From a virus, in the IMG/VR virus record IMGVR_UViG_3300030110_001528, positions 1-59,042 of that record: a DNA stretch of 59,042 nt; one strand, given 5' to 3'. This document shows, in pieces, positions 27,391-37,877 of the stretch. The number at the start of each line of letters is the position of its first letter. The first letter of the stretch is position 1. Position numbers and translations under genes: made by a program. The notes under the pieces are model-generated. The model made no database searches, had not been told where the DNA came from, and saw only the letters and a program-made list of their open reading frames with translations.

Positions 27391-28548
27391 TCAAGAAAAT
27401 GTTTGTGCTCTCGTGTTGAAATACTCAAACAACTCATCGCTTACTTCTGACCATATGGAAGGATTACCTGCCCTATTCGCTGAAAGCATTGTTACATCTG
27501 TTGAACCGCTTCTAAAAGTCTTTAGAATTTTATAGCTTGCGAACTCGTCACCGCTACCGTATGATCTGCCGTTAGCTTGTTGCGTGTTGGTAACAATGGC
27601 ACCGTCACCAAAACGTGCTCTCATCTCTGAAATTCTACCTGCGATATTTGAACGTGTTGTACCAGTAGCCATCATTAAATCCTGCACTGTCGAACCTTCA
27701 TCGGTTCTACATAATTGATATATTTGATCTAGTCTTGTGCCTTGTCTGTATGGTTGATCGGGTGTTGTTGTCTCTGCTAGGTCATTTTGATATTCTAGAA
27801 AATGATTATCAGTAGTTTTATACAAAGTATAAATTAATTCTATCCAATTCATTATCTTTTTGCATTCAGTAGAACCGCTATTTTGTCTAAATTCTATAGT
27901 GCCTTTATACCTTCTACTTGTTGGATCGGATGGTTCAAAATTCACAGCATAAAATTTTCCACCAATAATAGAATTAAGTTCACTTAAAGTTGTTGCACGG
28001 TTCCAACGTGAACTGCTCGTCTGTCTGTCAATTGGTTTGCAATAGCTGTTATCAGTTCTACTATTAGGTAAAATATTATTGATTAATAATTGGTTCATAC
28101 CGTAACGTGTAGCTACTGTTTTCATTAAGTAAAAAGGCATTGGATCGGCTTTATTTTCGGAATAAAAACCGCTATTACCTTGAACTATATGATTAATTTG
28201 TTCTTTGCAAAAGTCTTCTGGATGCATTTTAGTATTGTCTAGCCATTCAATGCCAAAATGAACATGACCGCCACATTTAGTGGTAATACCTGCGTTAAGT
28301 TCTAGAAGTGCACCTTCAATTGTTAACAATTGATTATTAAGAAACGGACAAATAGCCATTGGCGGTAAAACAATTTCAAAGACTTGTTGGTCACTGCTTG
28401 TTGCGTCTGTGATAACCTTGCACCAATTTATATTATTACTTCTTAAAGCATTGGTAATTACTTCAATTCCACTTTGTCTTCTAGTAGTTGAACTTAAAAC
28501 TATTTCAATCTCTATTCCTATTATTGGTGTTTTATTAAATGTATACAT
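27391..28548 (-). CDS. Amidoligase (COOH-NH2 ligase, glutamine-synthetase-like fold)
   Basis: 385 residues from ATG 28548 (GGAAAAAA upstream). Family signatures are clear: 'GIEIEIVL' at residues 11-18, 'FEIVLPP' at 57-63, 'CGGHVHFGI' at 92-100 and 'GTIEFRQNSGS' near 220. These match the phage and bacterial amidoligases that use ATP to form amide bonds between carboxylates and amines. After about residue 275 a winged-helix-like segment follows ('IYQLCRTDEGSTVQDLMMAT', 'SNIAGRISEMRARFGDG'), an apparent fusion. It has its own promoter, operator and terminators, and its partner is the GGCT-like gene upstream. Substrate unknown. Confidence 0.85.
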   Translation of the reverse strand: MYTFNKTPIIGIEIEIVLSSTTRRQSGIEVITNALRSNNINWCKVITDATSSDQQVFEIVLPPMAICPFLNNQLLTIEGALLELNAGITTKCGGHVHFGIEWLDNTKMHPEDFCKEQINHIVQGNSGFYSENKADPMPFYLMKTVATRYGMNQLLINNILPNSRTDNSYCKPIDRQTSSSRWNRATTLSELNSIIGGKFYAVNFEPSDPTSRRYKGTIEFRQNSGSTECKKIMNWIELIYTLYKTTDNHFLEYQNDLAETTTPDQPYRQGTRLDQIYQLCRTDEGSTVQDLMMATGTTRSNIAGRISEMRARFGDGAIVTNTQQANGRSYGSGDEFASYKILKTFRSGSTDVTMLSANRAGNPSIWSEVSDELFEYFNTRAQTFS

Positions 28549-28829: not shown

Positions 28830-29303
28830 TCAAATCTTTACCCGATGAAATGATCTGACCGAATTTTTTCTTGTCACGTTATCAAATTGCTGTGACTTGA
28901 ATTGCGACCAACCAAGTGATTCGTAAAGGTGATTGGTCTTGAGTCCAAAATCCTTGTACCCATCTAAGATACCATTAAAATAATGTGTGCTTGGCGGTAA
29001 CAAATCTTTTTGATTCATTACGTAAGTCATCATACCGTTAACAGTAATCTTGCGATACAAATGCGGGAATCCCTCATAGATATCTAAACTGTTTTCACAT
29101 TCGTCAGTGATCTGCCACACACCAACGGGTAAAAGGTCGTCAGCATTTCTGCTCGGCTCAATGTCAGCAACACCCCTAAACACTAATCTCCAATTAGGAA
29201 TGTAAGCAGAACCTAATTGTTTTGCATTAGGGCATCTCTTAGCCATTTGGGTCAAATTAAGATTTGACCCATAAGCAAAGTATAGTTTATTTTTTTCGTT
29301 CAT
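28830..29303 (-). CDS. Gamma-glutamylcyclotransferase-like (AIG2/GGCT fold) protein
   Basis: 157 residues, ATG 29303. 'LYFAYGSNLNLTQMAKRCPN' carries the YGSN substrate loop (residues 11-14), 'WRLVFRGVADI' follows, and 'LDIYEGFPHLYRK' contains the family's catalytic acid at Glu77. Enzymes of this fold cyclise and release gamma-glutamyl or similar amide-linked groups. Phage copies are known to occur beside amidoligases, as here: the next gene downstream is the amidoligase. The pair probably makes and trims an amide-linked modification. Confidence 0.85.
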   Translation of the reverse strand: MNEKNKLYFAYGSNLNLTQMAKRCPNAKQLGSAYIPNWRLVFRGVADIEPSRNADDLLPVGVWQITDECENSLDIYEGFPHLYRKITVNGMMTYVMNQKDLLPPSTHYFNGILDGYKDFGLKTNHLYESLGWSQFKSQQFDNVTRKNSVRSFHRVKI

Positions 29304-33595: not shown

Positions 33596-33754
33596 TTATT
33601 TTTCCTTATTTTCTTTAGGTAAATAAACAAGTACAAAACTATTACAATTTGGACATGATAAATTCGTAACCATCATATACTCTTCATTATCATCTTCTTC
33701 AATGTCGTGATCTCCACCCCAAATTAATTCTTTATTACAATGCCAACAATTCAT
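33596..33754 (-). CDS. 52-residue zinc-ribbon protein coupled to the CmoA-like gene
   Basis: ATG 33754 shares ATGA with the CmoA-like stop, with GTAGGAGGT upstream. 'MNCWHCNKELIWGGDHD', an acidic stretch 'IEEDDNEEYMM', then 'NLSCPNCNSFVLVYLPKENK'. Two CxxC pairs make a zinc ribbon. It is the last gene of the modification cassette and could be a specificity or recruitment subunit. That role is inferred from coupling only. Confidence 0.7.
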   Translation of the reverse strand: MNCWHCNKELIWGGDHDIEEDDNEEYMMVTNLSCPNCNSFVLVYLPKENKEK

Positions 33755-34404
33755 TTTCTACCTCCTACTGCATAACCCATAAAATTATACGATTGCCAAA
33801 TTTTAGAAACATTACCCAATTGTTTTAATTCTTCATTCAATTCTCTTTCAGTTTTACAAAACATCGAAACGGCTAACTGGGTATCTTTATCCAGAATCTC
33901 CTGATCCTGAAAATTTGTTCGCTTTTCCTGAACGTGCATCCTGTGTATAAGTGTCTGGATAATTGTGTTGTCAAGATATACTTTCTCAGCGATTAATAAT
34001 ATTGCACCCCGATTGATTCGTTCTTTTATCAACTGGAGTATACGTTTTCTTTTTCCCGATCCGAGAAACTGGAGCGTGAACATAGATATGATTACCGAAA
34101 CATTGTTCGGCTCTGGTAATATATCCTCGATGTCACCCAGTTTAAAATCAAACCCCGAATGGATTGTTTTTAATTTATTTTTATCAATCCCGATGTATTC
34201 ACAGTTTTCAGCTTTTGGCATCTGGGATAGAAACCGACCCGTTGAACACCCGATGTCAATGACTGCACTCTCTGGTTGAGCATATTCACACCCGATTCCT
34301 GTAAATATTTTAGTGAGCGAAGAATAGTTCGGGATTGACAACTCGATATGTTTGTCAAAATCCTCTATTGCTTTAAAATTAAATATTTTATAATGATGTG
34401 TCAT
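33751..34404 (-). CDS. CmoA-like class I methyltransferase-fold protein (candidate carboxy-SAM synthase)
   Basis: 217 residues; ATG 34404 overlaps the cytosine methyltransferase by 17 bases. 'FDKHIELSIPNYSSLTKIF' aligns with the CmoA start, Tyr27 matching E. coli Tyr39. 'VIDIGCSTGRF' is the SAM loop, 'GIDKN' and 'LGDIED' (Asp74, Asp91) are cofactor contacts, and 'FTLQFL' and the C-terminal 'IWQSYNFMGYAV' match CmoA closely. CmoA makes carboxy-SAM from SAM and prephenate. By hand alignment, E. coli Asn132 becomes Met108 and Arg199 falls at Asp174 next to Lys173, so carboxylate binding is not clearly kept. It could instead be an ordinary methyltransferase. No CmoB-like partner is visible, which argues against tRNA modification. 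Confidence 0.82.
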   Translation of the reverse strand: MTHHYKIFNFKAIEDFDKHIELSIPNYSSLTKIFTGIGCEYAQPESAVIDIGCSTGRFLSQMPKAENCEYIGIDKNKLKTIHSGFDFKLGDIEDILPEPNNVSVIISMFTLQFLGSGKRKRILQLIKERINRGAILLIAEKVYLDNTIIQTLIHRMHVQEKRTNFQDQEILDKDTQLAVSMFCKTERELNEELKQLGNVSKIWQSYNFMGYAVGGRK

Positions 34405-35545
34405 TTTCTTGCACCTGTTTTATTCTAGTTCCGAGCCATTCCATAACATTAATAGACATAGCCCGACCACAGGCTTCATATCTTTTTGATACAGGACATT
34501 CCTCCTTTGATTTGCCACGATAAGGTATTTGCGTGTAATTATCAGGCAAACCCTGAAGCCTTTCACATTCCAATGGCGTTAATCTCCGAACAATAGTGTT
34601 CCGAGCAACGCATGGTTGTCTGTTACCCCCTGTCATTGCGTTAAGCGTGGGAGAAACTTCCTCTTTTCTCACTCTTGGTGCTCCTCCATCAGGCGATCTG
34701 GGTTCAAAAACCACACAGGAAGAATTGTTCGGTTCACGCATCAGGACGGAATGATGATCGTGAGCTGTAATTTTGTACATAGCTCCATTCTGGTTTAATC
34801 CACTACCATTTGACTTTGAATGCCCCGATGCAATAGCAACCAAATCGGTGGCTGACTTGTAATCACGAGCGGCTATTGTTCCTGCGATGTCGTCTTGAGT
34901 GTATTGATCGCTTCGTGTAAGGCGGTGCGTAATTGTTCGGGTATCTTCTTCCCTTTTCTTCCTGCTCGGCGGAGGATTCCATGACAATGCTTTTCCGTCA
35001 AATAAAACCTTCGCTGGATTTCGCCAGTTTCGAGAATGTCCGACAACGAAGATACGCCTTCGCATTTGCGGGATTGCTCTTGGGAATCGTTGTGTTCGTA
35101 TGTATTGAGTGTCAAGAACCCTGTAGGCGAACCCATACCCGCATTCTGCCAACCCTCCGAGGAAGGAAGCAAGGTCTTTTCCTCCGTTAGATGACAAGAC
35201 ACCGGGGACATTTTCCCAAAGTACCCACTTGGGATTAATTCTTTTAATAAGGCGTATAAACTCAAGTGCGAGATTTCCTCTATCCGATTTAACTCCCTCC
35301 CGAAGTCCTGCCACGCTGAAGGTAGCACATGGTGTTCCTCCAACCAAGACATCTGGAGATTTTCCTCCGATGTTTTTCTTTTCGATTTTCGTAAAGTCGC
35401 CATAATTTTTTACCTCTGGGTAATGATGTTTTAAAATAGCAGAACGGAAAGGTTCTATCTCAGACACACCTATACATTCGTATCCAAGAGGTTCCCACGC
35501 CACACTTGCACTCTCTATTCCGCTACATATTGATAAAAATTTCAT
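34388..35545 (-). CDS. C5-cytosine DNA methyltransferase with altered cofactor-pocket residues
   Basis: 385 residues; ATG 35545 shares ATGA with the previous stop. Motif I 'LSICSGIESASVAWEPLG', motif IV 'GGTPCATFSVAG' (nucleophile Cys73), motif VI 'LWENVPGVLSS' (Glu111), motif VIII 'QMRRRIFVVGH', a target-recognition region (about 200-320), motif IX 'RRLTPLECERLQGLPDNY' and motif X 'RYEACGRAMSINVMEWLG'. All catalytic motifs are intact, so it should be active. Two usually fixed residues differ: Gln after the nucleophile is Ala74, and the motif X Asn (Asn304 in M.HhaI) is Arg361 (codon CGG at 34463-34465). Both positions line the pocket for the transferred group. No restriction endonuclease is adjacent. 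Confidence 0.93.
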   Translation of the reverse strand: MKFLSICSGIESASVAWEPLGYECIGVSEIEPFRSAILKHHYPEVKNYGDFTKIEKKNIGGKSPDVLVGGTPCATFSVAGLREGVKSDRGNLALEFIRLIKRINPKWVLWENVPGVLSSNGGKDLASFLGGLAECGYGFAYRVLDTQYIRTQRFPRAIPQMRRRIFVVGHSRNWRNPAKVLFDGKALSWNPPPSRKKREEDTRTITHRLTRSDQYTQDDIAGTIAARDYKSATDLVAIASGHSKSNGSGLNQNGAMYKITAHDHHSVLMREPNNSSCVVFEPRSPDGGAPRVRKEEVSPTLNAMTGGNRQPCVARNTIVRRLTPLECERLQGLPDNYTQIPYRGKSKEECPVSKRYEACGRAMSINVMEWLGTRIKQVQENDTSL

Positions 35546-35718
35546 TGTAATTTTTCTTTTTCTTTAGCTTCTTTTTTGTTTATTTCTTTAAGCTCCCGAT
35601 CACAAGCTCCACAACGAACATGTGTTGGGTCTTCTTTGTAAATTCTTCCTCTGGTCATCATGCCACACCAATCACAGTCAATGAAATTTTCATAATATCT
35701 TAAATAAGTATCACTCAT
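35542..35718 (-). CDS. 58-residue zinc-ribbon protein upstream of the DNA methyltransferase
   Basis: ATG 35718 shares ATGA with the primase-helicase stop, and its own stop shares ATGA with the methyltransferase start. 'YYENFIDCDWCGMMTRGRIY', 'KEDPTHVRCGACDRELKEIN' gives two CxxC pairs, 15 residues between them, then a Lys/Glu helix. It is clearly part of the coupled operon. It may be a DNA-binding accessory to the methyltransferase or a replication factor. Confidence 0.72.
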   Translation of the reverse strand: MSDTYLRYYENFIDCDWCGMMTRGRIYKEDPTHVRCGACDRELKEINKKEAKEKEKLQ

Positions 35719-37877
35719 ACGTTATCCCTCGCAGTTGTTGCCTCATATTCACCCCGACTCATAGTTCCATCAATAAGACCAAGCCACTTACGACCTCCTG
35801 CCGTGCTGAAACTAAACTTGTCAATTCTTCCTTCTGTAATCAATTCCCGAACAATTCCATCCAAAACTCTCTGGGATAAGTTTTGCAAAGCGTCTGGTGC
35901 ATCTAAATCAGTCAAGCGGTTACTCAAAGAATCAGCACCACCCTGTTGGCACAAAGCACGACCTTCATTTTCACAACGTCTAATCCATTCATGCAATGCC
36001 GTTTTTCTTAAATCCCGATTCGTTCCACTATTTAATTGAACAACATCATCAGTTCTATCCATCAAAAGACCTGTATCTAAATCCCGAACAAATTTTCTTA
36101 TTTGTCTTTTTGCTGGACCGTTTGACTTAACAACAGCACCATCGAAACATCTGTTCCTCTGGTATTCTATATCTAATTCTTTGCACTGGCGTTTCGCTGT
36201 ATTCTCATCCAGTTGCCACAAGGCAAAAGCACAACGAACACCATCAACAATGGCTGATGTACCCCGAATAAGATTACGAGCTTGTTCTGGTGTTGATATA
36301 ACTGTATCATCTTTAACTTTTGTCATGTGGTGGCACATCATAACTGACGCACCTGTTTCCGAACAAATCTTCGACATTAACCCAGTAAGTGCGGCTCCTG
36401 TTGCTGGATCAGAATTTACGTCTGCGTGAACAAACGAAGCCAACGGATCAAATATAATTAACTTCAGGTTGTTAATCTGTAATATTTGTTCGTATATACG
36501 CTCAAACTCTGCTGACGTTGTAAGTTCCCCATGAATACTTTGAAGAACAGGGAATACACCACCAACATTCGGCAATGATACAACCCGAAGTTCATTTTCA
36601 TACTCTAATCTTTCATTTCTTGGGTCTAAACGCTCTATTCTTCTGTGCATTTCGTCCTCATCATCTTCTGCTGTAAAGATAACGACATTACCAAACTCGG
36701 TAACATTACCCCCGAATGAATTACGCATTGGGTATCCACCAGTAACCTTCATAGCTAAATCAAGTGTAAGCATCCCCTTACCAGCATCTCCTGCGGCTGA
36801 TAATATAATTGGCACACCTAAAGGAAATGTACCGTCTACTATGAATTTTTGTTCGGGTGCTGGGCCAACGAATCTCGATATAAGTAAGCTGTCATCCAGC
36901 AAATTTATGTTTTGCTTGGTAAAATTGTTCGTAGTATTAAGAAAATCACTAATATCAAACCCTTCAGTTATGGCATCTGCCACATCCCATCTTTCAGGCT
37001 TGCCTCTGGGAAGAGTAAGCATTTTAACGGACTTCACGTTAGCATTCAGGGCTAATTCCTGAACAAGTTCAGCCAGTTTCTTACCTGCATTATCATTATC
37101 AGCCCATAATATAAGCTCTTTGCCTTGCAATGGAGAAAAATCGTACTGCGAAGCTGACTTTTTAGTAAGCATACCCGCACCACCCATCGTGCAAGTCGCT
37201 GTATAGCCCATGTTGTTAAGTGCATCAGCACATTTTTCACCTTCAACCCAGATAACTGTATCTGACGCTAAAATGTTCGGGATATTATACAATGGTCTGA
37301 CATCTGGCATCCGAGGATATGGGTGTTCGCCAGTAAATTGCCTAAATTCTTTCTTGGGTTTGCCATGCGTGTCCAGTACAGGATTACCTGATCCATCCCG
37401 AACAAGATACTTCCGAACCGAACAAATTGCCTGACCATCGGAGTTTTTATATAAATACTCAGAATCGTAGGGCGTTTGCCTGTTAATACTAACTTTTACT
37501 GGATTTTCTGCTGGTTGTTCCCGAACAAAGTTTTGAGGTTCACCTATGTATTCCGAAAACATCTCTTTAATTTCAGGAAGTCGCAAACCTCTACCCTCCA
37601 TTAATATCTTTACGATACCTCCGATACCGACACCTCCATTAAAATCCTGACCCTTCATAAAGTATGGACTTCTTGGGTTGATGTCGATCTTCAGGGATTT
37701 ACCCGATTCGCCTGAAGTCGAACCGATTGTAAACAAATCACCTGTTACTCTCCCTTGAGGAAAAGTATTACGAAGAACATCTATTTGAACCTGTCTTGGC
37801 ACTTTATTACTAATATTTTCAACTAGCTCACTTGCCGACATACTAGATTTAGTATTGTCAAATGGTAAAACACGCAT
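35715..37877 (-). CDS. TOPRIM primase fused to RepA-type replicative helicase
   Basis: 720 residues, GGAG before ATG 37877. The TOPRIM part has 'VIWVEGEKCADAL' (Glu212) and 'LILWADNDNAGKK' (Asp260, Asp262). The helicase part is RecA-like: Walker A AAGDAGKG at 361-368, 'VVIFTAEDDEDEMHRR', Walker B 'LKLIIFDPLASF' (Asp477), 'MMCHHMTK' sensor and 'IRGTSAIVDGVR'. The first 110 residues may hold a degenerate zinc or DNA-binding domain. It would unwind and prime phage DNA. As no DNA polymerase gene is visible, it probably recruits the host polymerase. Confidence 0.87.
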   Translation of the reverse strand: MRVLPFDNTKSSMSASELVENISNKVPRQVQIDVLRNTFPQGRVTGDLFTIGSTSGESGKSLKIDINPRSPYFMKGQDFNGGVGIGGIVKILMEGRGLRLPEIKEMFSEYIGEPQNFVREQPAENPVKVSINRQTPYDSEYLYKNSDGQAICSVRKYLVRDGSGNPVLDTHGKPKKEFRQFTGEHPYPRMPDVRPLYNIPNILASDTVIWVEGEKCADALNNMGYTATCTMGGAGMLTKKSASQYDFSPLQGKELILWADNDNAGKKLAELVQELALNANVKSVKMLTLPRGKPERWDVADAITEGFDISDFLNTTNNFTKQNINLLDDSLLISRFVGPAPEQKFIVDGTFPLGVPIILSAAGDAGKGMLTLDLAMKVTGGYPMRNSFGGNVTEFGNVVIFTAEDDEDEMHRRIERLDPRNERLEYENELRVVSLPNVGGVFPVLQSIHGELTTSAEFERIYEQILQINNLKLIIFDPLASFVHADVNSDPATGAALTGLMSKICSETGASVMMCHHMTKVKDDTVISTPEQARNLIRGTSAIVDGVRCAFALWQLDENTAKRQCKELDIEYQRNRCFDGAVVKSNGPAKRQIRKFVRDLDTGLLMDRTDDVVQLNSGTNRDLRKTALHEWIRRCENEGRALCQQGGADSLSNRLTDLDAPDALQNLSQRVLDGIVRELITEGRIDKFSFSTAGGRKWLGLIDGTMSRGEYEATTARDNV

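Follow-up and report, generated by a model that had tools for sequence, protein, structure and literature searches.

The window, that is the whole 59,042-nucleotide stretch analysed here (IMG/VR record IMGVR_UViG_3300030110_001528, a 59-kb marine phage record), carries on its negative strand a complete C5-cytosine methyltransferase ORF that overlaps the ORF of a CmoA-like protein by 17 bp (34388-34404). ATGA junctions at 33751-33754, 35542-35545 and 35715-35718 couple this gene run to its neighbours, and both the overlap and the coupling lie where an earlier note on this DNA had placed them. The features of the run are listed below.

33596..33754, - strand: small protein with a zinc ribbon, coupled in translation and probably a passenger; present at 11 of the 40 Arg loci but at none of the 30 Asn loci (classes defined below), also in HTVC027P and cyanophages
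33751..34404, - strand: predicted CmoA-like carboxy-SAM synthase, 217 aa; TIGR00740 4e-22 (below cut-off), phrog_4752 5e-37, fold match
34388..35545, - strand: predicted CmoX-like DNA cytosine-C5 carboxymethyltransferase, 385 aa; PF00145 7e-50, Arg and Ala in the pocket, CmoA-coupled clade
34463..34465, - strand: codon of Arg361 in motif X, aligned with M.HhaI Asn304 and SpCmoX Arg350
35324..35329, - strand: codons of the nucleophile Cys73 and of Ala74, the latter aligned with M.HhaI Gln82 and SpCmoX Ser99
35542..35718, - strand: small CxxC/CxxC protein, coupled upstream; no family above cut-off, at 4 of 40 Arg loci
35715..37877, - strand: Toprim/AAA replicative protein (PF13481, PF13155), lying upstream within this gene run and listed for context only

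The methyltransferase and CmoA-like genes both show dN/dS of about 0.1 against close relatives, indicating purifying selection, and dozens of contigs carry the two together; it is therefore not a chance arrangement. The small zinc-ribbon genes noted earlier on either side are indeed ATGA-coupled to the pair, but were rejected as parts of the system: they look like passengers, since many cyanophages and the Pelagibacter phage HTVC027P have the downstream one as well, and the CmoA-like genes, found in only 13 phage records, occur in no Pelagibacter phage. The window terminase is nearest to those of phages 023Pt_psg01 and DSL-LC04 and of Pelagibacter phages HTVC027P and HTVC023P, and near the terminase genes the window also encodes an Amidoligase_2 protein (PF12224, 27391-28548) and a GGACT-like protein (PF06094, 28830-29303). 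A Pfam search of ten further unknown window proteins gave no match, and CmoB, the partner of CmoA in its tRNA pathway, was not seen in the window.

Cofactor pocket and CmoA-like partner

Phage DNA carboxymethylation is a kind of modification that has already been published, which justifies the doubt in the earlier note as to whether such systems had been described. Yang et al. (December 2025) reported a CmoA/CmoX/CmoY DNA hypermodification system in Synechococcus phage S-B43 (PMC12783734; PDB 8YF3), in which CmoA makes carboxy-SAM (Cx-SAM) and SpCmoX, a C5-methyltransferase homologue that accepts only Cx-SAM, produces 5-carboxymethylcytosine (5cxmC) at GC sites. A Cx-SAM-bound crystal structure has Arg350 of SpCmoX, at the position of M.HhaI Asn304, binding the carboxylate (PMC12783734). 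CmoY then ligates glycine to the carboxymethylated product, and the modified base present in S-B43 DNA is solely the glycine amide; resistance of carboxymethylated DNA to HhaI has been shown for SpCmoX (PMC12783734). A literature search of partial coverage, with preprints and most subscription journals outside it, found no report of natural 5cxmC other than this one. The window resembles the S-B43 system in placing a CmoA homologue beside a C5-methyltransferase that has Arg at the position of M.HhaI N304 and a small residue at that of Q82, which predicts the same chemistry, and differs from it in gene order, the window having CmoX and CmoA genes in succession with an overlap.

The window methyltransferase has the core motifs of its Pfam family, motif IV reading GGTPCATFS and motif X EACGRAMS. 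The hallmarks of ordinary 5mC methylases, PCQ in motif IV and Asn in motif X, are absent, Ala74 directly following Cys73 and Arg361 (codon CGG) standing in their place. An alignment with M.HhaI (numbering derived by hand) sets A74 on Q82 and R361 on N304, and an independent profile alignment with the S-B43 CmoX family and SpCmoX sets C73/A74 on C98/S99 and G360/R361 on G349/R350, so that ORF, codon and both alignments agree on the complete enzyme with Arg361 and Ala74 that had been described. The motif X Asn is present in all 32 Asn-class viral relatives and in all readable bacterial relatives. The Q82 and N304 positions were earlier chosen by protein engineers to admit extended cofactors (PMC10666283). 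The engineered carboxymethyltransferase M.MpeI N374K, as far as it is treated in PMC12783734, likewise has a basic residue at the same motif X position, but is a laboratory mutant with Lys instead of Arg and acts at CG. The AF2 model of the window methyltransferase (pLDDT 50) is too poor to place Arg361 relative to the cofactor.

For the CmoA-like protein, TIGR00740 (CmoA) is the best NCBIfam model and covers residues 7-208, in keeping with the proposed match over the whole length, but the score of 79 bits falls short of the cut-off of 193.3; the proven SpCmoA is also below it, at 115.6 bits. The predicted structure (pLDDT 82.5) finds its best folds in E. coli CmoA and H. influenzae YecO (4iwn, 4gek, 1im8; TM about 0.79), and the top six Foldseek hits are all CmoA/YecO. 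Identity to these proteins is only about 27%, and Asp62, Gly64, Ser66, Asp89, Asp117, Phe137, Glu164 and Lys198 are conserved in the window protein. In E. coli CmoA, Arg199 forms a salt bridge to the carboxylate and Asn132 contacts the methionine part (PMC3663124). These two positions are Asp and Met in the window protein, which the earlier note had counted as a weak point, and position 199 is Asp or Glu in all of its phage relatives. Judged by these residues, the loss of Arg199 is no argument against carboxy-SAM synthesis by phage CmoAs, because SpCmoA, a proven Cx-SAM synthase, lacks both residues and has Glu and Leu instead.

Gene linkage and lineage of the Arg-type enzymes

Relatives of the methyltransferase in IMG/VR split into two classes without intermediates, Arg361 occurring with Ala74 and Asn361 with Gln74. 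The co-occurrence of motif X Arg enzymes with CmoA-like genes that had been suggested as a check is marked: among dereplicated loci, a CmoA-like gene adjoins 37/40 of the Arg+Ala class versus 0/30 of the Asn+Gln class (Fisher p = 1e-16, too strong a figure since the loci are related), counts that overstate independence because the linkage within this lineage is one evolutionary event that was inherited many times. Nearly all Asn loci extend at least 0.8 kb downstream, where the CmoA of the Arg class sits, and no CmoA was found in the complete records of seven of the Asn-type loci. Stand-alone CmoA is missing at Arg loci L034, L036 and L025, though in the L034 and L025 records a protein of 1200-1500 aa contains a CmoA-like domain; locus L047 is cut off 103 bp after its methyltransferase. 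The reverse search, anchored on CmoA irrespective of the methyltransferase, recovered an Arg-type enzyme in 35 of 38 loci. CmoY, an AsnB-like amide ligase, lies next to the methyltransferase in nine dereplicated Arg-TPCA loci, its homologues there being 44-51% identical to SpCmoY, and the CmoY-anchored loci proved Arg-type wherever motif X could be read. An Arg variant common among methyltransferases that have no CmoA-like neighbour would, by the earlier note, have refuted its proposal, but the variant is absent from the Asn-type phage relatives, and neither the variant nor a CmoA neighbour was found among about 80 bacterial-genome relatives.

These counts bear on the alternative that the methyltransferase makes 5mC in the ordinary way despite its unusual motif X and stands beside an unrelated small-molecule or tRNA methyltransferase. 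CmoA-like proteins are homologues of Rossmann methyltransferases, and the window protein misses the NCBIfam cut-off and the canonical Arg199, as such a reading would have it; however, the proven SpCmoA has the same apparent defects, SpCmoX accepts only Cx-SAM (PMC12783734), and the strict linkage of Arg+Ala enzymes to CmoA and the CmoY partner held in common make this reading very improbable.

Several other arrangements were observed. Phage proteins of 1500 and 1223 aa with a CmoA-like domain are encoded at L197:931-5430 (record G001) and L198:1805-5476 (record G002), the former matching phrog_4752 (8.6e-18) and TIGR00740 (2.7e-7); both phages encode an Arg-type CmoX but lack a separate CmoA, and in them carboxy-SAM synthase may be fused to a large phage protein. 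Staphylococcus phage vB-SscS-F1 (L187:5974-8492) has a run of CmoA-like, AsnB/QueC-like and C5-methyltransferase genes; the methyltransferase has Gly at motif X and Gln behind its PC, so that this is another arrangement, one that might make carboxymethylcytosine or might not. On three phage contigs of 100-200 kb (L378-L380), distant CmoA-like genes (38-46% identity) lie beside GFPC-type methyltransferases that lack the Arg, L380 having two of these, one with an odd motif X (CSGIPT). A gene resembling ThyX (flavin-dependent thymidylate synthase, by eye) directly follows the carboxymethyltransferase at L046:11622-12251 and L025:11106-11735, in L046 lying between it and CmoA.

In phylogenies ('quick' builds with the two trait columns left out and long-branched SPPC rows), the Arg-TPCA enzymes group in a single clade (SH-aLRT 91) whose sister is the Asn/Gln enzyme L024 (L024:9986-11155), and clade and sister together are nested among TPCQ/Asn methylases that are relatives of phage P1 Dmt. 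L024 is 67% identical to the window methyltransferase, has Gln and Asn in its pocket, and has no CmoA in its record. The P1 Dmt-like phage enzymes, including that of Pseudanabaena phage Pan4 and L024, are the closest sequence relatives of the window enzyme and share its motif order and long variable target-recognition region; they differ in their pocket Gln and Asn and in lacking CmoA throughout the loci and records that were examined, and are expected to make 5mC. The S-B43 group stands apart in the tree, with the SPPCQ/Asn enzyme of Aphanizomenon phage CL131 outside that group. Constraining all Arg enzymes to a single clade with SpCmoX costs 97 log units and is rejected (AU p = 0.00013).

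These trees leave little room for the reading that the methyltransferase truly belongs to the published CmoX family and that its SPPC motif drifted to TPCA. Such drift would account for the same Arg, the same small residue after the Cys and the same partners, but the nearest relatives outside the clade are Dmt-like TPCQ/Asn enzymes, with L024 so close, the phmmer match to 8yf3 is only 5e-4, and a single Arg clade fails the AU test, so that drift seems most improbable. Of the published characteristics of CmoX (PMC12783734), the window enzyme has the PF00145 homology, the Arg at N304/R350 and the CmoA neighbour, and lacks the SPPC motif, which is GTPC in the whole clade, and membership of a single clade with SpCmoX. 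The published census of 5,615 CmoX sequences was selected by SPPC and Arg350 (PMC12783734), a requirement that explains why the window's family is missing from it.

The window transferase, GTPCA where the S-B43 enzyme is SPPCS, thus appears from sequence comparison to be analogous to CmoX and to have originated separately, among the P1-Dmt-like TPCQ/Asn methylases. Its position outside the CmoX group suggests that the switch from Gln to a small residue and from Asn to Arg was reached separately in two lineages. Related CmoA and CmoY genes adjoin both transferase lineages, and one shared CmoA/CmoY module with two separate transferases would be the simplest account.

Predicted modification and its final base

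The two overlapping genes are best read as a DNA carboxymethylation cassette with 5cxmC as product and a separately arisen CmoX analogue as transferase, to which we assign a probability of roughly 0.87. Natural carboxymethylation of phage DNA, as the earlier note proposed, is supported by the analogous S-B43 pair, for which it has been demonstrated (PMC12783734), and by the Arg/CmoA linkage. The sequences, residue equivalences, gene linkage and phylogeny are those of this analysis and the chemistry is that of the S-B43 proteins; the activity, site and role of the window proteins we infer. The CmoA-like protein would convert SAM and prephenate into carboxy-SAM, and Cys73 of the methyltransferase would attack C6 of cytosine, with transfer of the carboxymethyl group to C5. 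Arg361 is proposed to pair with the carboxylate of the cofactor and Ala74 to make room for it, so that carboxy-SAM would be favoured over SAM. The resulting 5-carboxymethylcytosine at recognition sites in the phage DNA would probably guard against restriction, and in the window phage may give protection from host nucleases. Sister phages would go on to amidate the group by means of a CmoY-like ligase.

A profile search of the window record, which may be incomplete, found no match to CmoY, a partner in which sister loci resemble S-B43 and the window does not. Bare 5-carboxymethylcytosine is consequently the likeliest predicted product in the window phage, although the end product is unsure because several sister genomes also lack CmoY. 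The same enzyme could instead supply 5cxmC to an unrecognised or host ligase, or to the window amidoligase (27391-28548) with its GGACT-like neighbour (28830-29303), leaving an amide as the final base. This is rather unlikely: the glycine amide alone is present in S-B43 DNA (PMC12783734), CmoY occurs in sister loci and the window does encode an Amidoligase_2 protein, but CmoY is absent from close relative G011 and from most of the sister records that were searched in full, including two of about 60 kb, as well as from the window. Among Arg-type records, Amidoligase_2 was seen only in the window and G011, and its nearest phage relatives, in Bacillus and Porphyromonas phages, occur without a CmoA-like gene. 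The amidoligase/GGACT pair was rejected as a systematic ligase partner, there being no link to the Arg type elsewhere.

What is new here, on the phylogenetic evidence, is a transferase of a lineage distinct from the published CmoX group. It is likely that natural DNA carboxymethyltransferases arose at least twice from different C5-methyltransferase lineages, each time through changes at the same two positions (Gln to Ala/Ser, Asn to Arg) and in partnership with the same CmoA/CmoY module, that the SPPC census missed the second lineage, and that some members, like the window phage, may keep unamidated 5-carboxymethylcytosine as the final base. Published counts of such phage systems would then be lower bounds. 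The family would offer a clean case of convergent cofactor switching, and as L024 is a close Asn/Gln sister enzyme it provides a natural control for directly testing whether those two residues convert a methylase into a carboxymethylase. It would also extend natural cytosine carboxymethylation to a second enzyme scaffold, whose recognition sites are probably different and which would be of use in DNA labelling and in sequencing chemistry.
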